Below, piece by piece: positions 3,723 through 35,613 of a stretch of DNA of 35,613 nucleotides. How positions within the stretch are numbered: position 1 is the first letter of the stretch; every line of letters begins with the position of its first letter. This DNA is from a virus. Both the position numbers and the translations under genes were made by a program. The notes under the pieces are model-generated. The model saw nothing but the letters and a program-made list of their open reading frames with translations. It ran no database searches and was not told the DNA's origin. The stretch lies in IMG/VR virus record IMGVR_UViG_3300047311_000317, positions 1 through 35,613 of that record. One strand, given 5' to 3'.

Positions 3723-6700
3723 ATGAGCCAGCCGGGGATTGCACCGACACCGCCGGAAGCGGCAGGCGCGGCCAGACTGAATGCGCTTCGTCAGGGCGGG
3801 TTCAGCGAACAGGAAGCGTCCGACTATCAGGCGCGGCAATCTGTTGTGCTTGCGCGGGGTGGATTTTCCGGCAAGGAGATCAGCAACTATTGGGGCGGCG
3901 ATCCGAAAACCCCACAGCTCGCCCACACGCTTTCGATGAATGCCGACACGCCGAAAGAGGCTGGCAATCTCTACGAAGAATACATGGCCGGCTGGCAGGA
4001 CTCCGATCTTGGCCTTGCGATGCACGGCAAGCCGACGCTCGCGCATTCTCCCAAGAGCGGCATCATTGCGTCGGTGGTCAATCAGGCGGGACAATTCGCC
4101 GGCGATCTTCCGGCGGCTGTGCCGGGCGCGTTCATCGGCGCAGGTGCAGGCGGTGCGGCCGGCGCTCTGGTGCCCGGCGCGGGCGAGACTGGCGCGTCTG
4201 AAGCGATCGGCGCTGCCGCCGGTGCGGGCTTCGGATTCAATGCGGTGCCGCAGGCGGTGCGCGAGGGCTTGCTGGATGCGTACAATCGCGGCCAGGTCAA
4301 GACATGGACCGATGCATGGAACGTCGCATGGAACAGCGCCTCGAATGTGGTGAAACAGGGCGTCGTCGGTGCGGCAACAAACCTTGTCGGCGGCCCGGCG
4401 GCACAGGTTGCCGGAAAGGCCGGACTAGGCCCGGTTGCACAGACCGGCGTCAGGCTCGCGACGGAAGCAGGCACGGCCGTCACGACCGGGGCGGTGCTCG
4501 ACGGCCATGTACCGGACGCACACGATTTCGCCGCCGCCGGGCTGCTGATCTTCGGCCTGCATGGTGTCGCGGGCGCTGCGGGAAAGATCGTTGGGGGAAA
4601 ATATCGGGCGTCCACCGGCGAGAAGCGAATCGCCGCCAATCTGCAACAGGTCTATCGCGAGACAGGCATCCCGCCATGGCAGGCGGCAAAACTCGCGCAA
4701 AGCGATCCTGTCGTCTATCAGGAATTGCTCGCACAGGACACGGGCGGCAATCCATCGCTCGGCAAGACGCGCGCGCATGGCGGCATCGAGCCACAGCCGT
4801 TCGGCAAACGTACAGCCACGCCAGAACAGGAAGGCAAGACACCAAGCTTTGCGCGGACTGCCGACGATCTTCTGCCGACGGTCAGGGGCCTGGAAGGTTC
4901 GGGCATCGAAGCCAGAGACGACGCTGCAATCTCACCGGCGGGCGCAATGGGCCGCTACCAGATCATGCCGGGCACGGCGCGGCAATACGGCTTTGACCCG
5001 GCGCATTTGCTCGATCCGCATTACAACGAAATGGTCGCCCGTACCGTTCTCTCCGACCTCATCAAGCGGTATAATGGCGACACGGCTGCGGTGCTTGTGG
5101 CCTATAATGCCGGGCCGGGTTGGGCCGCGAAATTCCTTGCAGCCGGCCGCGATCCCTCCATGTTGCCGCACGAGACGCAGAAATATCTCACCCATGCGGA
5201 ATCGCTTGGGCTTACGCCGGTTGGTCCATATCGCGCGAACTGGAAGAGCTTTCGCGACCGGCCGGAAATGGTATTGCGCCAGAACACCGACGGCTCCATA
5301 GCGCCGGATGCGCGGTCGATTTCTTCTTATTTGCAGGAATTTGGCAGGCTCGCCAATTTCAGTTTCAAGATCGAGCCTGCGATGATGGACATAGACGAAG
5401 GGCCGGGGCCTTCGTTCGAGCATCGGCCGGCCGAACCCTTCGCCAGCACCTATCGCAATGTGTTCATCCCCGACACGCCGGAAGAAACACAGAAGCGCTG
5501 GTACGGACTAGGACGCTACGAAGTCCTCTATCACGAAGTCGGCCATGCGATCGACAGTTACCTGCATGGCGGAACAGGAACAACAAGACAGATTTCCGAC
5601 CCGGAATTGAAGGCGGAAATGGTGGCTTCGTCCAAGGCGTGGAAGCCGCTCATCTGGGAACGCTATCCCGACCATGCCAAGAAGCCTTCCGAACTCGTCG
5701 CCGACAACATCGCGCGCTATATTTCCGATCCTGTGGCGCGAAAGGACATGCCGCTGTTCGACAAACAGTACGGCGAAATCCTCAAACCGTACATCGAAGC
5801 GGCGGAACGCGCCCTGCCTGTGAAGGGCAGCGACGGAGAGTGGAGCGACCCGAAGGGCGCCCCGCAAGGCGGCGGCTGGTACGGCATGGGTGGCGGTGGA
5901 AAGAAACCGCCCGGCGGCGGCGGTACAGAAGGGGGAGAAGGTCCAAAGCAAATCCCCGGCCCGAAGGGAGACAGATTCCGGTTGCCGTTTGATTTGCGCG
6001 CGCAACGCTTTCAGGAAGACATGATCGGCAAGGAACCGGAACGCGGCACCCCGCCGCTCGGCGAAGCTGTCCGGCAATATGTCTCGGAACTGAAACCGGC
6101 CGAAGACATCGACACGCTGTTGCGCGAACGCGGGAAACTCGGGCCGAAATCCGTGGGCGTCGCCGATATGTTCCGGCAGACCTATGGCTCGGAAGGCCGG
6201 GCGCTCTCCATGCTGAAGGACGGCCCGCTGGATTTGTCTGACCCGAACAACATCACGCGGCGCGCCGGTATAAAGCCGTACATGAAGATTTTGGAGGACG
6301 TGCAAAAGGGCGGCGGCACGCTGGAAGGCTTCGACTACTGGCGTTCGGCCCAGCGCACGGTGCAACTGGACAAACGCGGCATAGAAGGCGTCATGCCGCT
6401 CGACGAAGCGAAAGCCACGATAAAAGACGCGCCGGAGATTTACGCGGAAGCGGACGGCGAACTGCAAAAGTTTCAGGGCGCCATGCTCGATTACATGGTG
6501 GCGTCTGGTACGATTTCGGCCAAGCAAAAGGCGCTGATGCTGAAGGCAGGGCCGTCCTATGTCTCGTTTCGCCGCATCATGGGCGACGACCAGAGTTTCA
6601 TCACCATGCGCGGCTCGCGATCGTTCCGTGTCGGGCGTTCGGTGTTCAAGGTCGAGGGCTCTGACAAACAGATCGTATCCCCGCTCATGTCGGACATCGA

Positions 6701-8552
6701 CAATGTGCGCCTGATGGTGCGCATGGCGGACCGCAACCGCGCCCAGCGCGCGGCGATCGGCACACTGGCGGAAGAAAAGGATGGAGTCCCGGCGCTCATC
6801 AAGCGCGAGAAGCCGATCGAGATTGCCGAACCTGGCAGCGACGTATTCAAGCCCTACAAACTCGACGCGGACACCGAGAAGGTCTATGCCGCGATGACGG
6901 CGGTGAAAGCGGAGTCCGGCGACAAAAACACCTTCACCCATTATGAGGACGGCGTTCCCGTTACCTATCGCGCGCAGTCGCCGGAACTCGCGCAACTCAT
7001 GCGCGGAGCGGATTCGGGCCAAGAGGCCCATATCATCGACCGCGTGTTTACCGCCGCCTCCAAGCTGACGCGGCTTGGTGTGGTGCTGTCGCCGGACTTT
7101 CCGGTGCGTATCGGTCTGCGCCATGAAATGACGGCGTACACCTATGATCCGCTTCACCCGCCGCCCCTGGTGAATTTCATCGAAGGGGCAATGGATATTT
7201 TCGGCAAGAGAGACGCCTTCAAGGCGTGGGCGGCGAACGGCGGGGCCGGAGCAACCTTTGCGGAAATGGGCAATGCCACGCTGAAGCACGATGTCTTCAA
7301 GCTGTTCGACGAAACCGGCTTTACCAACAAGGCGTGGAACGTGATGCACCATCCCATTGAGGCGGGGTTGGCGTTGCAGGAATTTATCTCGACGGCAAAC
7401 CGCGTGGGCTATTACAAGCGCGCGATCCGCATGGGCTATGAGCCGCTGAAGGCGGCCACCATGTCGCGGCCGGCCTATCTGGATTATTCCGAACGCGGAA
7501 CTTCCGCCTTCGTCAATACATGGTCGAAATGGACGCCGTTCTTGCGGGCGCACATTCTCGGTACGGAAATGCTCGCCAAAGCCTATGCCAAAGACCCGGC
7601 GGGAACGGTCGCCCGGCTGATGCTGTCGCACACCATCCCGTCGGTCATCCTCTATGCGCTGAACTACTGGCAGGATCAGTCGGGCCAAGTACCAGAAGAT
7701 CAGCAGTACAAACAGATTCCGCGCTGGGAGAAGGACACCTATTTCATCCTTCCCCAAGTGGGAGGTACGCGGCTTCGCATTCCCTATGGCTTCCAGTCCG
7801 GAGCGGTGTGGGGCGGCATGGTGCAGCGCTTTCTCGATTCCGAATTGCAGAAAGACCCGCAGGCTTTCAACGAGTGGGCCAAGGGAATTTCCGATGAACT
7901 GATCCCGCCGGTCCTCCCCGATGTCGCCCGCCCGCCATTGGAGATTGCCGCGAACAAGAACTTCTTTACCGGCAAGCCGCTCATCCCGGATTCGATGAAG
8001 GACGCCAGCGGTCAGTACCAGTTCACCGATGCGACGAGCGAGGCAGCAAAGACTCTGGCGAAATATGTCTCCCCCGTCGTCAATATCTCGCCCATCAACA
8101 TCGACGAACTGGTGCGAGGCTTTACGGGGACGCTCGGTCAGGATGCATTGAAAGCGGTTGACGCAGCATCCGGCAGGCCCGGTATGCCATGGGAAGTCGC
8201 GGATATTCCGTTCGTGCAATCCTTTGTGGTGCGCAATCGCGGGTCCAGTCCCCAGCGCATCGAAGATTTCTATACCGATCTGCACAAGCTCGAACAGAAG
8301 AACGTGGATTTCGGACTTGCCAGAAAACGCAACGACTACAGCGCCATGCTGGCGAACGCGAACGGACGGGCCTATTTCCGAATCGACCAGATCGCAAAAG
8401 CAATGGCCGTCCAGCATGACCTTATTCGCGGGATTGAAGCAAACCAAACCATGTCCGCCGACGAAAAGCGCCAGTCCATCGACGCCACCTACGCAATGAT
8501 GCTGGCGGAATCCAGGGCCGGTTCGGACGCCATCAGAAAGATTACCCCATGA
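3723..8552 (+). CDS. Giant ejection protein: lytic transglycosylase plus HEVGH zincin-like motif
   Basis: 1609 residues starting one base after the previous stop. The N-terminal third has Ala/Gly-rich hydrophobic stretches (about 115-165 and 225-285). Residues about 380-470 read as a soluble lytic transglycosylase domain: the likely catalytic Glu is E391 in GLEGSG, followed by ISPAGAMGRYQIMPGTA and VAYNAGPG. At 604-608 the motif HEVGH appears in YHEVGHAIDSYL, with SELVADNIARYISDP downstream as a possible third zinc-ligand region, so a metallopeptidase-like domain is likely. A Gly/Pro/Lys-rich linker lies at about 710-740. The last 600 residues match the style of the large polyvalent-protein C-terminal domain (LPD38-like: FISTANRVGYYKRAI, WSKWTPFLRAH). 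It is probably packed in the head and ejected to open peptidoglycan and to act in the cell. The enzymatic assignments come from motifs. Confidence 0.75.
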   Translation: MSQPGIAPTPPEAAGAARLNALRQGGFSEQEASDYQARQSVVLARGGFSGKEISNYWGGDPKTPQLAHTLSMNADTPKEAGNLYEEYMAGWQDSDLGLAMHGKPTLAHSPKSGIIASVVNQAGQFAGDLPAAVPGAFIGAGAGGAAGALVPGAGETGASEAIGAAAGAGFGFNAVPQAVREGLLDAYNRGQVKTWTDAWNVAWNSASNVVKQGVVGAATNLVGGPAAQVAGKAGLGPVAQTGVRLATEAGTAVTTGAVLDGHVPDAHDFAAAGLLIFGLHGVAGAAGKIVGGKYRASTGEKRIAANLQQVYRETGIPPWQAAKLAQSDPVVYQELLAQDTGGNPSLGKTRAHGGIEPQPFGKRTATPEQEGKTPSFARTADDLLPTVRGLEGSGIEARDDAAISPAGAMGRYQIMPGTARQYGFDPAHLLDPHYNEMVARTVLSDLIKRYNGDTAAVLVAYNAGPGWAAKFLAAGRDPSMLPHETQKYLTHAESLGLTPVGPYRANWKSFRDRPEMVLRQNTDGSIAPDARSISSYLQEFGRLANFSFKIEPAMMDIDEGPGPSFEHRPAEPFASTYRNVFIPDTPEETQKRWYGLGRYEVLYHEVGHAIDSYLHGGTGTTRQISDPELKAEMVASSKAWKPLIWERYPDHAKKPSELVADNIARYISDPVARKDMPLFDKQYGEILKPYIEAAERALPVKGSDGEWSDPKGAPQGGGWYGMGGGGKKPPGGGGTEGGEGPKQIPGPKGDRFRLPFDLRAQRFQEDMIGKEPERGTPPLGEAVRQYVSELKPAEDIDTLLRERGKLGPKSVGVADMFRQTYGSEGRALSMLKDGPLDLSDPNNITRRAGIKPYMKILEDVQKGGGTLEGFDYWRSAQRTVQLDKRGIEGVMPLDEAKATIKDAPEIYAEADGELQKFQGAMLDYMVASGTISAKQKALMLKAGPSYVSFRRIMGDDQSFITMRGSRSFRVGRSVFKVEGSDKQIVSPLMSDIDNVRLMVRMADRNRAQRAAIGTLAEEKDGVPALIKREKPIEIAEPGSDVFKPYKLDADTEKVYAAMTAVKAESGDKNTFTHYEDGVPVTYRAQSPELAQLMRGADSGQEAHIIDRVFTAASKLTRLGVVLSPDFPVRIGLRHEMTAYTYDPLHPPPLVNFIEGAMDIFGKRDAFKAWAANGGAGATFAEMGNATLKHDVFKLFDETGFTNKAWNVMHHPIEAGLALQEFISTANRVGYYKRAIRMGYEPLKAATMSRPAYLDYSERGTSAFVNTWSKWTPFLRAHILGTEMLAKAYAKDPAGTVARLMLSHTIPSVILYALNYWQDQSGQVPEDQQYKQIPRWEKDTYFILPQVGGTRLRIPYGFQSGAVWGGMVQRFLDSELQKDPQAFNEWAKGISDELIPPVLPDVARPPLEIAANKNFFTGKPLIPDSMKDASGQYQFTDATSEAAKTLAKYVSPVVNISPINIDELVRGFTGTLGQDALKAVDAASGRPGMPWEVADIPFVQSFVVRNRGSSPQRIEDFYTDLHKLEQKNVDFGLARKRNDYSAMLANANGRAYFRIDQIAKAMAVQHDLIRGIEANQTMSADEKRQSIDATYAMMLAESRAGSDAIRKITP

Positions 8553-10067: not shown

Positions 10068-10784
10068 ATGGGGCGACCTCTTGCGATTGATCTTTTCTGT
10101 GGTTTAGGCGGCTGGACGGACGGCCTGCTTGCCGAAGGCTGGGACGTAATCGGCTTCGACATTGAGCAACACGTTTACGGCGAGCATCGCTATCCGGCGC
10201 AGCTTGTCGTCCAGGACGTTCTCACGCTCCACGGCTCGCAATTCCGTAATGCTGACCTGATCGTCGCCTCGCCGCCCTGCCAAGCCTACAGCTACCGCGC
10301 CATGCCGTGGAAACGCGCGAAGGCGTTGCCGCCGCCGGATAATACGCTGTTCGAGGCGTGTTTTCGCATCAAGCGAGAAGCCTCTGAAGCCGCTGGCCGG
10401 GATATTCCTCTGATCGTGGAGAACGTGCGCGGTGCGCAGAAATGGGTAGGGCGCGCCCGCTGGAATTATGGCTCGTTCTATCTGTGGGGCGACGTGCCGG
10501 CGATCATGCCTGTGGTTGCAAAAGCTTACAAGACAACCGGGCACACACATCGGAGAGATGGTCATCCCCACACAAAGCGACTGACGAATCCAGCCGAATT
10601 TTCTGTCCGCAAAGCGCCAAGCGGAACGCAATGGTTCAATGACGGGCCGCGCTCACCGGGTTCGCTCGCATCGTCCGGCAGCAAATCGCCAGCTCGCAAA
10701 TTCGCCTCCGCCATGATCGCCAAGATACCGCTGCCGCTCAGTCGCTATATCGGCGCGACGTTCAGGCCCTTGCACTCATCCTGA
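10068..10784 (+). CDS. Short C5-cytosine DNA methyltransferase-like protein
   Basis: 238 residues. Motif I is LFCGLGGWTDGL at 9-20 (S-adenosylmethionine binding). Motif IV is ASPPCQAYSYR at 68-77, with C71 as the likely nucleophile. Motif VI is ENVRGAQ. The protein is much shorter than standard Dcm-type enzymes (330 or more residues). The QxRxR motif and a clear target-recognition region are not obvious, so it resembles the compact phage cytosine methylases that protect viral DNA from restriction. It stands between the tail fibre and lysis genes, after a 29-bp gap. A hairpin covers its stop codon. Activity and target site cannot be told from the sequence. Confidence 0.75.
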   Translation: MGRPLAIDLFCGLGGWTDGLLAEGWDVIGFDIEQHVYGEHRYPAQLVVQDVLTLHGSQFRNADLIVASPPCQAYSYRAMPWKRAKALPPPDNTLFEACFRIKREASEAAGRDIPLIVENVRGAQKWVGRARWNYGSFYLWGDVPAIMPVVAKAYKTTGHTHRRDGHPHTKRLTNPAEFSVRKAPSGTQWFNDGPRSPGSLASSGSKSPARKFASAMIAKIPLPLSRYIGATFRPLHSS

Positions 10785-20293: not shown

Positions 20294-20523
20294 GAAGCAA
20301 TATCACCCACGCGCAGAGTCATCCAAACACTGTCGCCCGCAAGGAAAGAACCGTGGCCCTCTTGCGCGGCCTGCAAAAGCGCGGCGGTATTGGCCCGCTC
20401 GGCAACATGAGGGGCCTTCCTGGCTGGCGATGGTCGCTCGCGCAAGGCGTGATCGCGACCGACAACAAACAGTGGTGGATAACTCCGCGCGGACTTTTCT
20501 GGCTGGAATGCTACGGCACATGA
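20290..20523 (+). CDS. Small winged-helix-like hypothetical protein
   Basis: 77 residues coupled to the resolvase by ATGA and to the methyltransferase by another ATGA. The order is ERTVALLRGLQKRGGIGPLG then GWRWSLAQGVIATDNKQWWITPRGL. A helix pair followed by a probable beta wing is like small DNA-binding or transcription proteins in phages. No exact family was found by eye. Confidence 0.5.
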   Translation: MRSNITHAQSHPNTVARKERTVALLRGLQKRGGIGPLGNMRGLPGWRWSLAQGVIATDNKQWWITPRGLFWLECYGT

Positions 20524-21074
20524 ACGATCTACGGGACTTTGGTGCGATTCTGTGCGACCCGCCGTGGGCTTTCAAGACCTATTCCGGCAAGCATTCCACG
20601 CCACATCGCTGTGCCGAAGATCATTACACAACGATGCATCTTTCGGATCTGAAAGAGTTGCCAGTCGAAGACATGGCAGCGAAGAATTGCGCGCTCTTTA
20701 TGTGGACGGTGGACTCGCATCTGCCGGATGGAATCGACCTCGCAAAAGCATGGGGATTCGATTACAAAACCGTTGCGTTCGTTTGGGAAAAGGGCCGGAT
20801 CGGTATGGGCTATTGGACGCGAAAGCAGGCTGAAGTCTGCCTTATGTTCACACGTGGGAAGCCCGTTCGAATCTCCAAAGGTGTGCGACAAGTCATTCGT
20901 GAACCCCGCCGCGAGCACTCGCGCAAACCAGATTGCACCCACACCAGAATCGCGGCACTTGTCGGCGGGCCATATCTCGAACTATTTGCCAGGTCGCCTG
21001 TGGATGGTTGGACCGTATGGGGAAACGAGACAGACAAGTTCACGAATCTCTTTTCGGTTCCTGTGCAGAACTAG
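20520..21074 (+). CDS. MT-A70-family adenine methyltransferase
   Basis: 184 residues from ATG 20520 in an ATGA overlap; the longer in-frame opening is not used. The catalytic DPPW is at 13-16 in GAILCDPPWAFKTYSG. AEDHYTTMHLSDLKELPVED, NCALFMWTVDSHLPDGI, GFDYKTVAFVWEK, MGYWTRKQAEVCLMFTRGK and the end phrase GPYLELFARSPVDGWTVWGNE are diagnostic for phage MT-A70 enzymes. It would methylate N6 of adenine in DNA, giving protection against restriction or marking phage DNA. The site specificity is unknown. Confidence 0.85.
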   Translation: MNDLRDFGAILCDPPWAFKTYSGKHSTPHRCAEDHYTTMHLSDLKELPVEDMAAKNCALFMWTVDSHLPDGIDLAKAWGFDYKTVAFVWEKGRIGMGYWTRKQAEVCLMFTRGKPVRISKGVRQVIREPRREHSRKPDCTHTRIAALVGGPYLELFARSPVDGWTVWGNETDKFTNLFSVPVQN

Positions 21075-26762: not shown

Positions 26763-27038
26763 ACAGGCAAATCGGCCTTCATGGACGGCATGTGGGCGGC
26801 GTTTGTCGATTGGGCGTTCCGCATGGACGATATGCGCAAAGCGTTTGAATCGGAGACTGGCGAGGTGTTCCCGGCGCTGGCGGCCACCCCGCTCGATGCG
26901 ATGATCGACAACGCTTGTGGTTTCGATCGAAAAACCGCGCTCAAAGTCTATTGTGAAAGATTCACCAATTGGGTGACGATCAATCATTGGGGTTACGAAG
27001 ACGCGCCTGAGAAGTGGCGGAAAGCGCACCCACGTTGA
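26739..27038 (+). CDS. Hypothetical 99-aa protein with duplicated start
   Basis: ATGA overlap with the gene before; begins MTKSPDRQ like its neighbour and then differs: GKSAFMDGMWAAFVDWAFRM, EVFPALAATPLDAMIDNACG, FTNWVTINHWGYEDAPEKW. It lies just before the large terminase and overlaps its start by four bases (if TTG 27035 is used). No family was recognised, but its position suggests a packaging-related role. Confidence 0.5.
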   Translation: MTKSPDRQTGKSAFMDGMWAAFVDWAFRMDDMRKAFESETGEVFPALAATPLDAMIDNACGFDRKTALKVYCERFTNWVTINHWGYEDAPEKWRKAHPR

Positions 27039-28507
27039 CCAAGCCCAAACAACCGGATCGCACAGCCCTACTTGAAGAAGCCAAGCTTCAAGAAGCTCTT
27101 GCCAAACGGCGGCGATTCTTCGCGCTGGATTTTTACAAACCGTACACCAAGCAAAAGCTCTTTCACGACTTCGGCGCAACCAAACACGAGCGCGCGCTGA
27201 TCGCGGCCAACCGTTCGGGCAAGACGTGGTGCGCGGGCGCTGAAGTCGCCATGCACCTTTCGGGGCTTTATCCGAAATGGTGGGAAGGGCGGCGCTTTGC
27301 CGAACCGACGCGCTGGTGGGCGGCGGGCATGACCGGACTTGCGGTGCGCGATGTCTGTCAGAAAGTGTTGTTCGGTACGCCGAACGTGCTGGACGATCGC
27401 GGCACCGGCATGGTGCCGAAGTCTTCGGTAAATTGGGACAAGGGCACGACACTGGCCCACGGCTATGCGGGGCTCTACGACACCGTACAGGTCAAGCACA
27501 AATCCGGTGGTACATCGACCGTTCGTTTTATGACTTATGAGCAGGGACGGGAAAAATGGCAGGGAGAAACCCTTGACGGCGTGTGGTGCGATGAAGAACC
27601 GCCGATCGCTCTCTACTCGGAAGGGCTGACCCGCCTCGCTACTACCGGCGGGATCATGCTTTGCACCTTTACCCCGCTGATGGGCCGTACAAAGGTTGTC
27701 CACAGGTATCTTTCCGAACCGTCGGATGACCGCGCCTACGTAGGCATGACGATAGACGACGCAGAACACATCAGGCCGGAAGAGCGCGAACGCATTGTCG
27801 CGGGCTATCTTTCGCACGAACGAGCGGCGCGCGCACGCGGCGAACCGATGATGGGCTCGGGGCGCATTTTCGAGGTGGACGAAGAAGACCTGAAAGAGCC
27901 GTCCGTCAATCCGGTTCCGGCGCACTGGTTCAAACTCTGGGCGATCGACATTGGCACGGAGCACCCGTTCGCTGCCGTGCTGCTCGCGCACGACCGCGAC
28001 GCCGATGTCGTCCATGTCCTGCACGCCTTCAAGATGCGGGAATCCAGACCGATAGATCATGCCTCCGCGATGAAGCCCTGGGGGAAGGAAATCCCCGTCG
28101 CATGGCCCCATGACGGTCATATCCGCGAGCGTGGAAGCGTCGAACCTGTGATGCGCCTCTACAAGGACGCTGGCCTGAAGACGCTTCCCAGCCATGCTGC
28201 ATTCCCCGACGGGACGATTTCCACCGAAGCAGGAATCCGCGTGATGGACGACAGGATGCGTTCGGGCCGCTTCAAGGTGGCTTCGCATCTTTCCGAGTGG
28301 TTCGAGGAATACCGGCACTATCACCGGATTCCGAAGAACGACGGCTCATCCGAAATCGTCAAGCAGAACGACGACCTGTTGAGTGCGACCCGGATTGGAT
28401 GCATGACGATCCGCTCCGCGCGTCGAGGCGCCGTCGGACAGGAACAGCGGCAAGGCTCAGACGTTTGCCGCGATGTTGATTTCGACGTACTGAGTTGCGC
28501 CGCTTGA
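27035..28507 (+). CDS. terL: Terminase large subunit (packaging ATPase-nuclease)
   Basis: 490 residues from TTG 27035 (TTGA overlap); GTG 27014 is the other option. Walker A is at about 57-64 (AANRSGKT). Walker B-like GVWCDEEPP lies at about 182-190. A CTFTPLMG coupling motif follows. The nuclease part begins at LWAIDIGTEHPFAAVLLAHD, and further acidic residues occur in AWPHDG and KQNDDLLSATR. It cuts concatemers and drives DNA into the head through the portal. After NDDLLSATRIGCMTIRSARR the C-terminal end looks less regular (VGQEQRQGSDVCRDVDFDVL), near an HNH gene that may have invaded. Confidence 0.9.
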   Translation: MTKPKQPDRTALLEEAKLQEALAKRRRFFALDFYKPYTKQKLFHDFGATKHERALIAANRSGKTWCAGAEVAMHLSGLYPKWWEGRRFAEPTRWWAAGMTGLAVRDVCQKVLFGTPNVLDDRGTGMVPKSSVNWDKGTTLAHGYAGLYDTVQVKHKSGGTSTVRFMTYEQGREKWQGETLDGVWCDEEPPIALYSEGLTRLATTGGIMLCTFTPLMGRTKVVHRYLSEPSDDRAYVGMTIDDAEHIRPEERERIVAGYLSHERAARARGEPMMGSGRIFEVDEEDLKEPSVNPVPAHWFKLWAIDIGTEHPFAAVLLAHDRDADVVHVLHAFKMRESRPIDHASAMKPWGKEIPVAWPHDGHIRERGSVEPVMRLYKDAGLKTLPSHAAFPDGTISTEAGIRVMDDRMRSGRFKVASHLSEWFEEYRHYHRIPKNDGSSEIVKQNDDLLSATRIGCMTIRSARRGAVGQEQRQGSDVCRDVDFDVLSCAA

Positions 28508-31236: not shown

Positions 31237-32997
31237 ATGGCTGCGGAACGCACGCTTTCTGGTTACGGCGATTCCGGCGCGGCGAAAGTCGCGCAGACCG
31301 CACGCGAACTATCCATCGTTGACGAACGGCTGCGCAGTTTCGCGCAGAAGCAGGCATACAGAGGCCCGCGTGCGCTTCAATGGGAAGAGTCTGCCTCGCT
31401 GATGGCGCCGCAGTACAAAAACACCTTCTATTTCGGCAACTACAATTTCCCCGGCATCAAAAAGACCCAACTGCAAGTCGATTCCACCTGCCAGCTCGCC
31501 AACTGGAAATTCGGCGCCATCTGCGACGCAATGATGACCCCGTTCTCGTCCACCTGGGCGGTTCTGGCTTCGACCGATCCCAACATTCAGAAAGACCGCC
31601 AGTCCCGTCTCTATTTCGAGCGCGTTTCGCACATTCTCGCAGAAATGCGCAATGCGCCCAACGCCGCGTTTCGCCGGAACAATCAGGTCATCTGGCAGAT
31701 GCTCGGCGCGTTCGGCAACGGCCCGCTGTTTGTGGACCGCGAAATCGACGCACGCGGAAACCCCGCCAGAGGCGTTCGCTATTCGGCAATCCCGCTCGGT
31801 CAGGTGTACATCGAGACAAACCATCAGGGCCGTGTCGTCGGATTCGACCGCTGGTTTCGGCTCACCGCGTTTCAGGCGTCCTGCGCGTTCGAGAAAATTC
31901 CCGAACAACTGCAAACCGCGCTGGAAAAGAACTCGCAGGCCCCGTTCGATTTTCTGCATTGCGTCTGCCCGAACAGCGAATACGAACCAGGCCGCAAAGA
32001 CGCCGAGGCCATGCCGTTCCGCAGCTACTACATTTCGCTCACGACAAAACAACTGCTGACGCCAAAGGGCGCGGCCTCCAACATCGGCGGCTATCGTACA
32101 TTCCCGCTGCCCTATGCGCGTTATCTGCAAAACCCCGAAGACCCGTATGCGGACGGTCCGGCGCAACTGATTCTCCCGGCGCTGAAAACCCTCAACGCCG
32201 AAAAGACGATGTATCTGAAGGTCGGCCACCGTACAGCCGACCCTATTCTGCTTGGCCCCGACGACGGCCTTGTCGATCCGTCGCTGCGCCCCGGCACCTA
32301 CATGAAGGGCGGCATGGGCCCAGACGGCAAGCCGCTGGTTTCGCCGCTCGAATACGGCTCCATCCAGATCACCAAGGAAATGATGGACGAGGAACGCGCC
32401 ATCATCGGCGAAGCGTTCCTGACCACGATTTTTTCCGCTCTGGTCGAAAATCCGCAGATGACCGCGACACAGGTTGTCGAACTCATCAACCAGAAGGGAA
32501 TCTTTCTCGCCCCGATGGCGGGGTCGGTGGCACCGGAATATCTCGGCGCGATGATCGAACGCGAAGTTGACCTTGCGGACGACTTGATGCTGCTGCCGCC
32601 CATGCCGCCGCTTCTGCGCGAGGCAGGTGGACAGTACAAAGTCATCTATACCAGCCCCTTGTTCAAGGCGGCCCGTGCTGGCGATGCGGCAGGCTTTTTG
32701 CGCACGGTGGAATCCGCCCTCGAAGTCGCCGGCCAGACCGGCGATCCCTCGCACATGGACCCGTTCGCCTTCAAACGCGCATGGCCCGCGATTGCCGATA
32801 TTCAGTCCGTCCCCGAATCGTGGATGGCAAGCCCCGACGAAATGGATGCGCTCGTACAGGCCCGCGCAAAAGCCAAGCAGCAGGAACAGGACGTACAGGC
32901 ATTGCCCGCACAGGCCGCCATGCTGAAAGCGCAGGCCGTTGTTCAGAAAGCAGGCGGGCGGATCAATCAGCAGCCAGGCGGACAGCCGACCGCATGA
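31237..32997 (+). CDS. Portal (head-to-tail connecting) protein
   Basis: 586 residues, the usual size of the podoviral head-tail connector (PF12236-like). Typical parts are QWEESASLMAPQYKNTF near the start, VDSTCQLANWKFGAICDAMM followed by TPFSSTWAVLAS, NNQVIWQMLGAFGNGPLFVD, and late MTATQVVELINQKGIFLAPM with GSVAPEYLGAMIEREVDL. The protein forms the ring at one head vertex that docks terminase and later the tail. The C-terminal tail is Gln/Ala-rich. It is coupled to the next gene by ATGA. Confidence 0.9.
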   Translation: MAAERTLSGYGDSGAAKVAQTARELSIVDERLRSFAQKQAYRGPRALQWEESASLMAPQYKNTFYFGNYNFPGIKKTQLQVDSTCQLANWKFGAICDAMMTPFSSTWAVLASTDPNIQKDRQSRLYFERVSHILAEMRNAPNAAFRRNNQVIWQMLGAFGNGPLFVDREIDARGNPARGVRYSAIPLGQVYIETNHQGRVVGFDRWFRLTAFQASCAFEKIPEQLQTALEKNSQAPFDFLHCVCPNSEYEPGRKDAEAMPFRSYYISLTTKQLLTPKGAASNIGGYRTFPLPYARYLQNPEDPYADGPAQLILPALKTLNAEKTMYLKVGHRTADPILLGPDDGLVDPSLRPGTYMKGGMGPDGKPLVSPLEYGSIQITKEMMDEERAIIGEAFLTTIFSALVENPQMTATQVVELINQKGIFLAPMAGSVAPEYLGAMIEREVDLADDLMLLPPMPPLLREAGGQYKVIYTSPLFKAARAGDAAGFLRTVESALEVAGQTGDPSHMDPFAFKRAWPAIADIQSVPESWMASPDEMDALVQARAKAKQQEQDVQALPAQAAMLKAQAVVQKAGGRINQQPGGQPTA

Positions 32998-33302
32998 GTC
33001 AACTGAACGAACGCCAAGAGTGGCTGAAGGCCGCTTATGAAAACACGCTGCAATTCCTCGACTGGCGCCGCCGCAGTTATCAACTGAAATTTCCCAACCG
33101 GGCGACGGACACGATCCTGATGGACCTCGCCCGTTTCTGTCATGTCAATGAGGATTGCCCGCACAGCGACCTCTACAAACTCGGCGAGTGGAACGGGATG
33201 CAGAAGGTGTTTCGTCGCATCCAGCGCCACTTGAATCTCACCACCGAAGAACTGTTCGAGTGCTATTCCGGCATTCGGCAGCAGAAGGAGAATCGATCTT
33301 GA
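32994..33302 (+). CDS. Bbp19-like structural protein
   Basis: 102 residues. The central phrase TDTILMDLARFCHVNEDCPH with the end FRRIQRHLNLTTEELFECYS matches the Bbp19 family named after a Bordetella podophage protein, normally located right after the portal gene. The function is unknown but is thought to be virion-related. ATGA overlap upstream and TTGA overlap downstream. Confidence 0.7.
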   Translation: MSQLNERQEWLKAAYENTLQFLDWRRRSYQLKFPNRATDTILMDLARFCHVNEDCPHSDLYKLGEWNGMQKVFRRIQRHLNLTTEELFECYSGIRQQKENRS

Positions 33303-33490
33303 GCGACGTTATGCGGCAGACATACCGAGAACTGAACGCCGACGAAAAAGAAAATCTGAAAGCGTTCAAAGACCTTGGGCAGCAGTTTTATATACATTGC
33401 GATGCACAGAACCCGTCGCGTGAAATTTCGATTGCCAAAACCAAGATTGAAGAAGCGGTCATGTGGGCCGTGAAACACATCACGAAATAA
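33299..33490 (+). CDS. acb2: Acb2/Tad1-hairpin-like protein (anti-CBASS sponge candidate)
   Basis: 63 residues from TTG 33299, chosen because AAGGAG lies 7 bases upstream and TTGA overlaps the previous stop; ATG 33311 is the alternative. The pattern is TYRELNADEKENLKAFKDLGQQF, a short loop, then SREISIAKTKIEEAVMWAVK: two helices joined as a hairpin, as in the Acb2/Tad1 domain. The known Acb2 binds and hides cyclic oligonucleotide signals of CBASS immunity as a hexamer. Two ligand residues in its founder, a Tyr and a Lys, are 15 positions apart; here Y9 and K24 have the same spacing. The position among head genes agrees with known Acb2 loci. Binding itself is inference. Confidence 0.7.
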   Translation: MSDVMRQTYRELNADEKENLKAFKDLGQQFYIHCDAQNPSREISIAKTKIEEAVMWAVKHITK

Positions 33491-33499
33491 GGAGAAATC

Positions 33500-34420
33500 A
33501 TGAGTCAGACAGGAACCGCCGCCGCCACTGGCGATACCGGCGCAGCAGCAGCACAGGCAGCGGCAGCAGCAGCCGCGACGGCACAGGCCGCAGCATCGAA
33601 TGCGGCGCCATGGTTCGACACCATGAAGACCGATGCAGAGTTCGTCGGCACATTGCAGACGCGCGGCCTCGACAAGAAATCCGCACTGGAAGCGGCGCAC
33701 GATTTCTACAAGGGCCACCGCGAAGCAACCCAGATGATTTCCCGCCTGACGGGAACGCCGGACAAGGATCGCATTGTGATCCGGCCGAAACCCGATGCAA
33801 CGCCGGAGGAAATCGCGGCCTTCCATGAAAAACTCGGCCGACCCGCGAAAGCCGATGACTACGACTACAAGGACGTGAAATTCCCTGACGGCACCGAACT
33901 GGACGCCGATTATGCCGCGCATCTGCGGGCCGCAGCGTTCAAAGCCAACCTCACCAAGGACCAGGCCGCGTCGATCGCCAAGGACCAGGCCGCGTACATT
34001 CAGAAGATCGACGAAGCGCGCACGGTTGTGGATCAGGCGAAGCTCTCCGAAGAAATCCGCGCCATCGAAGCGGCATGGGGACCAAACCACGACGCCTTCC
34101 TGTTCATCGCCAAGCAGGCAATGACGAAGTTTGGCTTTACCCCGGACATGCTGCAAACCTTGCAGAAGACCATTGGCGCATCAAAAGTGATGGACGGCTT
34201 CCTGAAGCTCGGCCAGCAAACCGGCGAAGGTCGGTTCATCGCCAATCAGGCGCCGGGCGGGACGGGACTGATGACGCCCGAACAGGCAACCGCCAAGGTG
34301 AAAGAACTGATGAGCGAAAAAGGCCCCGACAGTTTCGGTGCCAAGGTCCGCCGTGGCGATGTTGCCGCGACCGAACAGTACAACGCGCTCGCCGAAATGA
34401 TTACGCCAAGGGGAACGTAA
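33500..34420 (+). CDS. Scaffolding protein
   Basis: 306 residues with an excellent ribosome site (AAGGAG, 7 bases before ATG). The N-terminal 35 residues are almost only Ala, Gly, Thr and Gln. The middle has VIRPKPDATPEEIAAFHEKL followed by GRPAKADDYDY, typical of podoviral capsid assembly/scaffold proteins, and long helices follow. It stands between portal and capsid as expected. A 24-base tandem duplication at 33954-33995 gives KDQAASIAKDQAAYIQ. It would guide procapsid assembly and then leave. Confidence 0.8.
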   Translation: MSQTGTAAATGDTGAAAAQAAAAAAATAQAAASNAAPWFDTMKTDAEFVGTLQTRGLDKKSALEAAHDFYKGHREATQMISRLTGTPDKDRIVIRPKPDATPEEIAAFHEKLGRPAKADDYDYKDVKFPDGTELDADYAAHLRAAAFKANLTKDQAASIAKDQAAYIQKIDEARTVVDQAKLSEEIRAIEAAWGPNHDAFLFIAKQAMTKFGFTPDMLQTLQKTIGASKVMDGFLKLGQQTGEGRFIANQAPGGTGLMTPEQATAKVKELMSEKGPDSFGAKVRRGDVAATEQYNALAEMITPRGT

Positions 34421-34422
34421 CC

Positions 34423-34605
34423 ATGCCCAGTACATCACAGGCGCAATCCCGGTATATGCACATGGCGGATTCCGCAAAGGGCCGTGCGAAACTGAAGGCG
34501 GAGGGCAAGGAACCTCCGCCCAAGTCCGTCGCCCATGAATTTGTCTCGGCCGATCGCGGAAAGAAAACCGGGCTGCTTCCCGAGCACGCCAAAAGGCGGG
34601 GTTGA
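34423..34605 (+). CDS. Small 60-aa protein before the capsid gene
   Basis: From ATG 34423, two bases after the scaffold stop. It reads MPSTSQAQSRYMHMADSAKG, then PPKSVAHEFVSADRGKKTG and LLPEHAKRRG. The same kind of short basic protein with a KSVG/A-x-EFV-x-AD centre occurs in many phages and prophages. It is probably a minor virion or DNA-binding protein. Confidence 0.6.
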   Translation: MPSTSQAQSRYMHMADSAKGRAKLKAEGKEPPPKSVAHEFVSADRGKKTGLLPEHAKRRG

Positions 34606-34768
34606 CAACAAACACCACAGACTGACATGATTCGTCAGGCCCGATAGTGATTCGGGCGCGGGACCGCGCAAGCGCCGCTGGAAGCTGTCGAAAGACAGAA
34701 CTCCGGCCCCCCTCTTGGGACACGGCCAAAGCAAATCGCTTTGAACCTGACCAAGAGGGATTACACCC
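34606..34768 (+). promoter_or_regulatory. Structured leader of the major capsid gene
   Basis: 163 bases without a gene. Consecutive hairpins can form: CTGAC/GTCAG (34622-34638), CCCGA/TCGGG with a 7-base loop (34640-34656), a GC-rich segment with alternatives (34656-34678), and CTGTC-GAAA-GACAG (34685-34698), which has a GNRA tetraloop. AAGAGGG precedes the GTG start of the capsid gene. The set probably stabilises or processes the capsid mRNA or regulates its very high translation. Confidence 0.5.
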
Positions 34769-35613
34769 GTGGCCGACGCATACGAAATTGCCCTAGCCCA
34801 AACCAAATTCTCGCTGGCGCTCGAAATGGCGCTTCAGCAAGAGACAACCAAGATTCGCGGCGCGGTGCGCGAACAGGGGATTACGGGCGCCAAGCTCATG
34901 TCCCCGATTCAGCAAATCGAGCCCGTCCAGATGAAGGCCGTTTCCGGCCGCTTCTCGGACAAGAATTACGACGCCAACTACTACACCCGGCGCTGGGTTG
35001 CCCCGACCGATTATGTCGGCGACACGCTCATCGACACTTTCGACTTGCTCAAGACCGAAATCGACCCCAAGGGCGAGACGGTCAGTTCGTGGGCAAGTGC
35101 CTGTAACCGCGCTTTCGACGACGCGATTGTCACCGGCGCCTTCGGCACCAATCAGATCGGCACCGACGCCAACTCGCTCTCCAACGAAACCTTCGACGAC
35201 ACCAAATACACGGTGGACGAGGATTTCGGCGGAACGGGATCGGGCCTTCTGGTCGCCAAGATCATCGAAGGCCGGCGCATCATGCGCAAGAATCATGTGG
35301 ACATCGAGCGTGAAGGCGTAACCCTCGTCATCGGTTCCTTCCAGGAAGCCGACCTTCTCAAGCAGTCGCAGGTTGTGTCCAGCGAGTTCAACCGCAATGG
35401 CGGCGTCGTGGAGAACGGTACAGTCACCCGTCTCTACGGCTGCAACATCATCGTCATGGAGCGGCTGCCGCTGGTGGAATCGGCCGCAGTCCGCAACTGC
35501 CTGATGTTCGTGAAGTCCGGTTTGGTGCTCGGCGTCTGGCAGGACATCAAGACCCAGCTGGCTCAGATTTTCACCAAGGAAGGCAACCCGTGGAACGTGT
35601 CCACCGTGCTTGC
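34769..35613 (+). CDS. Major capsid protein, 5' part
   Basis: 281 codons from GTG 34769 (ribosome site AAGAGGG) and still open at the window end. The sequence ADAYEIALAQTKFSLALEMA, TGAKLMSPIQQIEPVQMKAV, NYYTRRWVAPTDYVGDTLID, NRAFDDAIVTGAFGTNQIG is typical of the podovirus HK97-fold capsid family (Phage_capsid_2-like). The later ENGTVTRLYGCNIIVMERLP agrees. The protein builds the icosahedral shell with the scaffold just upstream. The rest of the gene and the next head-tail genes are missing from the window. Confidence 0.85.
   Translation, partial: MADAYEIALAQTKFSLALEMALQQETTKIRGAVREQGITGAKLMSPIQQIEPVQMKAVSGRFSDKNYDANYYTRRWVAPTDYVGDTLIDTFDLLKTEIDPKGETVSSWASACNRAFDDAIVTGAFGTNQIGTDANSLSNETFDDTKYTVDEDFGGTGSGLLVAKIIEGRRIMRKNHVDIEREGVTLVIGSFQEADLLKQSQVVSSEFNRNGGVVENGTVTRLYGCNIIVMERLPLVESAAVRNCLMFVKSGLVLGVWQDIKTQLAQIFTKEGNPWNVSTVL

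Follow-up and report, generated by a model that had tools for sequence, protein, structure and literature searches.

A compact Acb2-family hairpin protein, a candidate immune-signal sponge, in a 201-bp present/absent cassette of a phage head operon

Gene organisation of the locus

The window, i.e. the whole stretch of 35,613 nucleotides analysed here (IMG/VR record IMGVR_UViG_3300047311_000317), ends in a head operon (Table 1); no end repeats were found in this 35.6-kb virus record. Within the operon lies a short ORF of 63 codons, read from the sequence with a TTG start and a TAA stop and preceded by an AAGGAG ribosome-binding site, all as described in the initial annotation. Its TTG and the TGA of the preceding gene overlap as TTGA, which makes the proposed coupling of its start to the upstream gene plausible. 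The ORF had been placed between portal and scaffold. The scaffold side of this placement holds, but on the portal side a gene for a Bbp19-like protein intervenes.

Table 1. Features of the head operon and of the cassette carrying the hairpin ORF (window coordinates)
Feature	Position	Strand	Basis or remark
Terminase	27014-28507	+	Gene order
Portal / head-to-tail connecting protein	31237..32997	+	PF12236, E 3e-61; phrog_332
Bbp19-like phage protein, 103 aa (upstream neighbour)	32991..33302	+	PF25181, E 7e-5, 23 bits, slightly below the cut-off of 25
Ribosome-binding site AAGGAG	33285..33290	+	Sequence read directly; 8 nt upstream of TTG
201-bp present/absent cassette (hairpin ORF and RBS of the next gene)	33296..33496	+	Junction alignment, BLAST boundaries
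Left short direct repeat ATCTTGAG	33296..33303	+	Stop-start overlap; also at the empty site of the sisters
Hairpin ORF, 63-aa minimal Acb2/Tad1-hairpin protein, candidate immune-signal sponge	33299..33490	+	PF24729, AF2, PDB matches
Right short direct repeat ATCATGAG	33497..33504	+	One mismatch; includes scaffold start codon
Scaffold-like protein (downstream neighbour)	33500..34420	+	phrog_3742, E 9e-24; weak phrog_458 protease; precedes capsid
60-aa ORF	34423-34605	+	Between scaffold-like and capsid genes
Major capsid protein, extends past window end	34769..35611	+	PF19821, E 5e-37; phrog_3437

Three further observations were made in the window. Compared with shuffled sequence, the 163-nt leader in front of the capsid gene (34606-34768) folds far more strongly (z -4.96). 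The diverged relative L170 retains the distal part of this leader (GGGACACGGCCAA); an Rfam search with the leader gave no match, and it is possibly a structured RNA. Two DNA methyltransferase genes (10068-10781 and 20430-21071; phrog_363 and phrog_359) are possibly further counter-defence genes, directed against restriction. A virion protein of 1609 aa (3723-8549), with a lytic transglycosylase region at about residues 400-490 (phrog_2013, phrog_342), is probably an ejected internal protein.

Family membership and predicted structure

The Pfam profile PF24729 ("Acb2/Tad1, hairpin domain") matches the 63-aa protein with 57.1 bits (E = 2.1e-15), a wide margin over its curated cut-off of 27 bits, and the alignment joins residues 8-63 to profile positions 1-58 of 58, i.e. 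the full length. On the same profile, the founder Acb2 of phage PaMx33 scores 66.1, T4-type Vs.4 71.0, the short form of Gordonia phage DatBoi 76.6 and Tad1 of SBSphiJ7 34.2. A profile built from 79 relatives was searched against the PDB and found T4 Vs.4 (E = 3e-5), Acb2 homolog 43 (9e-5), PaP2 Acb2 (p26; 1.5e-4) and Tad1 (3e-3), with E-values below 0.01 for Acb2 and Tad1 chains only. Together with an aligned Tyr/Lys pair (see below), these matches bear out the Acb2-type identity suggested by the initial annotation.

Relatives were found in viral contigs (371) and in bacterial genomes (56, mostly Alphaproteobacteria) and, together with the PF24729 match, they exclude a chance origin of the ORF as judged by sequence. 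Of 385 genomes sampled evenly across the class of one carrier, six had a match above the cut-off. The protein has no match in NCBIfam or in PADLOC, whose models describe defence proteins and do not include sponges, and its PHROG matches (717, 1454 and 15810) are all families of unknown function.

The AlphaFold (AF2) model consists of two helices (residues 14-35 and 41-62; mean pLDDT 92), in agreement with the two-helix hairpin pattern noted earlier. When this model was compared to the PDB with Foldseek, the top eight matches were all Acb2 (probability 0.96-1.00), with E-values that are weak (0.07-0.33) because the fold is a small helical hairpin. VIA-align gave Z-scores of 7.2 against T4 Vs.4 (60 residues, 2.7 A), 6.6 against PaP2 Acb2 (59 residues, 2.1 A) and 6.2 against 9ptq (57 residues). 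Since several unrelated two-helix proteins have VIA Z-scores close to these values, the fold score alone is indecisive, and it is the sequence profile and the residues that decide membership in Acb2.

Pocket residues and their conservation

A phmmer alignment paired residues 8-31 of the 63-aa protein with residues 10-33 of the 8h2j chain. Both Y9 and K24 are present, and the alignment agrees with the earlier equation of this pair with Y11 and K26 of the PaMx33 founder. Y9 also corresponds to Y8 of T4 Acb2, R41 to R67 of the founder and T48 to T68 of T4 Acb2. In T4 Acb2, ligand binding is lost in the mutant Y8A (PMC12657218, PMC12657230), while T68M reportedly lowers the binding affinity (PMC12657230). 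T48 is the sole invariant column over Acb2, Tad1 and the relatives.

Among the 79 relatives, K24 and R41 are kept in all 79 and Y9 in 73. These relatives were retrieved mainly via the peptide EEAVMWAV, the conservation of which is inflated because it was the search seed; therefore, only Y9, K24 and R41, which lie outside this peptide, were used as conservation evidence. The ligand-stacking Phe82 of T4 Acb2 corresponds to T62 in the 63-aa protein. A C-terminal stacking aromatic is not a family-wide trait, as the PaMx33 founder has an Ala there too.

Comparison with solved and annotated proteins

The founder Acb2 (PaMx33/PaP2 p26; PDB 8h2j, 8h2x) has the PF24729 domain, the antiparallel two-helix hairpin, the residues aligned above and the KT of the GKTD/AKTK motif in common with the 63-aa protein. 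It is larger, however, with 93 aa: its hairpin tip is extended by about 22 residues, and it also has one more turn at the N-terminus and a tail at the C-terminus. T4 Vs.4 (Acb2 of T4, PDB 7uq2) is the best fold match, ranking first in Foldseek, and shares the AKTK..EA.MWA motif in addition to Y8 and T68, but differs in its longer tip and in the stacking Phe82. Acb2 homolog 43 (PDB 9ptq, solved with 3'cADPR; six copies of the chain in the entry) is likewise a short, tip-less hairpin, with a chain of 76 residues. It has K24, R41-E42, T48-K49 and E51-E52 in common with the 63-aa protein at an identity of only about 26%, and its best matches among annotated phages are actinophages.

The protein had been described as shorter than the founder and perhaps a minimal form. 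It is indeed shorter, but the short length is not new, as the 76-residue 9ptq chain precedes it. By its sequence, the 63-aa protein belongs to the Acb2 family as a minimal form without the tip; this family is known and curated, and short forms of it have already been solved. As cited in PMC13232231, the diversity of sponges is treated in a 2025 preprint.

Tad1, which binds gcADPR (PMC12043709), shares the C-terminal helix motif SRE..A.T..EEA.MW and the Pfam hairpin model with the 63-aa protein, but carries an N-terminal beta-sheet domain. Membership in Tad1 was rejected, as the protein has only 63 aa, no strands in its AF2 model and no beta domain.

These comparisons bear on the ligand. An Acb2 member with a changed ligand, binding mainly 3'cADPR or another ADPR derivative as a signal of the Thoeris type and not the cyclic dinucleotides of CBASS, is a possibility that we consider rather unlikely. 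The short homolog 9ptq bound to 3'cADPR, with its shared positions, and the helix motif in common with the gcADPR binder Tad1 point in this direction. However, the residues equivalent to Y9 and K24 are also the pair that serves cyclic dinucleotides in the founder, and sequence cannot tell the ligands apart. Such a shift would be a variant of the sponge reading, overlapping with it rather than contradicting it.

The closest annotated phage proteins are gp37 of Sinorhizobium phage Aussie (53% identity) and DVVG_00015 of Dunaliella viridis virus SI2 (51% identity). Both contain the same hairpin domain and are annotated as hypothetical proteins; they differ in their gene neighbourhoods and in an N-terminal extension (..STSDxRTVNN) that the 63-aa protein does not have. 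Most relatives carry a conserved extension of this kind (..V.STSDxRTVNN) in front of the hairpin, e.g. L138:5956-6189 and L084:4950-5192.

Presence and absence in sister phages

A search with both neighbouring genes retrieved four sister contigs without the cassette (L147/L153, L148/L155 of 44.3 kb, L149/L154 and L150/L152). Their DNA is 95-99.5% identical to the window on either side of the cassette, the stop of their Bbp19-like gene is directly joined to the scaffold start, and no hairpin domain was found anywhere in the four contigs. A further contig, L001 from metagenome 3300046535, carries the hairpin gene with DNA identical to the window copy, while L147, from the same metagenome, is one of the four without it. 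In the more diverged relative L170/L171 (identity to the window of 73% for the portal, 58% for the Bbp19-like protein and 43% for the scaffold), the gene order is the same but the hairpin gene is missing, with no copy within its 40.7-kb record. The G+C content of the hairpin gene (45.8%) is below that of every one of 1,749 stretches of 192 nt sampled from the rest of the window, which average 59.0%.

These differences are most simply explained by a recent acquisition of the hairpin gene in the lineage of the window, a podovirus-like phage. Because the sister and the diverged phages do without the gene and the gain appears to be recent, we infer that it is dispensable for particle formation.

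A recent gain would also suit a mere passenger, i.e. a protein that shares the fold but no longer binds a signal and plays no part in counter-defence. The T4 stacking residue is not kept, and ligand binding is a prediction, both of which are in line with such a passenger. Nevertheless, this explanation is improbable, as the protein retains the pocket residues of known effect, whose columns rank among the most conserved, and as the copies in the window and in L001 are identical in DNA with an intact frame.

Gene neighbourhoods of the relatives

Among 95 neighbourhoods of relatives, the commonest neighbouring PHROG family occurs seven times downstream and five times upstream (terminase), and other neighbouring families include portal, endolysin, ParB-like, methyltransferase and exonuclease. 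The hairpin gene lies between the head-tail adaptor and the stopper in Sinorhizobium phage Aussie, near a holin in SI2 and among recombination genes in ctCJ8213, where it is annotated as a hypothetical protein as in the other two. The initial annotation had likened the head-gene position to that of known Acb2 loci. This does not hold, because the founder acb2 gene (PaMx33 ORF24) is the last gene of an operon for DNA replication that runs convergently to the structural genes, and T4-type acb2 is found among small genes near regB; a head position is thus not typical of Acb2.

The location in a head operon, the coupled start, the place between the Bbp19-like and scaffold genes and the adaptor/stopper setting in phage Aussie could all be expected of a small protein of the virion or of morphogenesis, with a hairpin that aids scaffold, portal or capsid assembly. 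Such a role is very improbable, however, since sisters that are nearly identical in those head genes have no such gene, nor has the diverged L170/L171 with the same gene order. Moreover, relatives adjoin endolysin, ParB-like, methyltransferase, exonuclease or holin genes, and each PHROG family is found in at most 7/95 neighbours. On the absence in sisters and the heterogeneous neighbours, a part of the virion was ruled out, and the association with virions considered earlier is unlikely. The clean absence in sister phages, the low G+C content and the varied neighbours therefore indicate that the hairpin gene is a mobile accessory gene and not a virion part.

Some relatives adjoin endolysins or a putative holin. 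A lysis-cassette context is not claimed, as a Pfam search with ten candidate neighbours gave no match. In two relatives (L005:3959-4612 and L019:3965-4654), the hairpin reads on in frame into a C-terminal domain that contains strongly hydrophobic segments, looks holin-like by eye and has neither a Pfam nor a PHROG match. In L005, this extension is 40% homologous to a separate membrane-type gene immediately upstream of the hairpin gene in L078/L079. These fusions hint at a membrane-tethered sponge or at a link to lysis genes. In another relative (L080:3968-4690), the hairpin is followed by a long in-frame extension with a putative Ig-like domain at its end (He_PIG, E 0.003, under the cut-off; Hoc-like phrog_2973, E 0.009), which could place the sponge on the particle.

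Proposed function and implications

Based on the family assignment, the modelled fold and the pocket residues, the 63-aa protein is very probably an Acb2-type signal sponge, whose oligomeric state, ligand and protective effect are predicted by analogy. It would form a small oligomer, presumably hexameric like the Acb2 proteins of known structure, and would bind, but not degrade, a cyclic nucleotide that the host produces as an alarm signal. As a short Acb2 form has been solved with 3'cADPR, either CBASS (a cyclic di- or trinucleotide) or Thoeris (a cADPR isomer) could be the source of this signal. Kept from its effector in this way, the bound signal would no longer act, and the infected cell may live long enough for phage release. 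Expression from the head operon would mean that the sponge is made late and in large amounts together with the capsid proteins, and late, abundant production would suit a stoichiometric binder.

A more speculative proposal, which we consider rather unlikely as a whole, is that the tip-less Acb2 hairpin is a plug-in cassette of about 200 bp that enters translationally coupled late operons, so that near-identical phages of one community occur with and without it, and that the ligand of this minimal form is not the cyclic dinucleotides of the founder but, for example, a cADPR-type molecule.

What is new here is that phages in nature differ cleanly at one locus by the presence or absence of a single 201-bp cassette. 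Carrier and non-carrier lineages, with one pair from the same sample, are rarely available for a counter-defence gene and, if the protein is a sponge, their comparison could reveal the host immune systems that select for it. The Acb2 sponge family is also extended to a compact form of 63 residues with bacterial relatives mostly in Alphaproteobacteria, and this minimal size helps to define what such a signal pocket needs.
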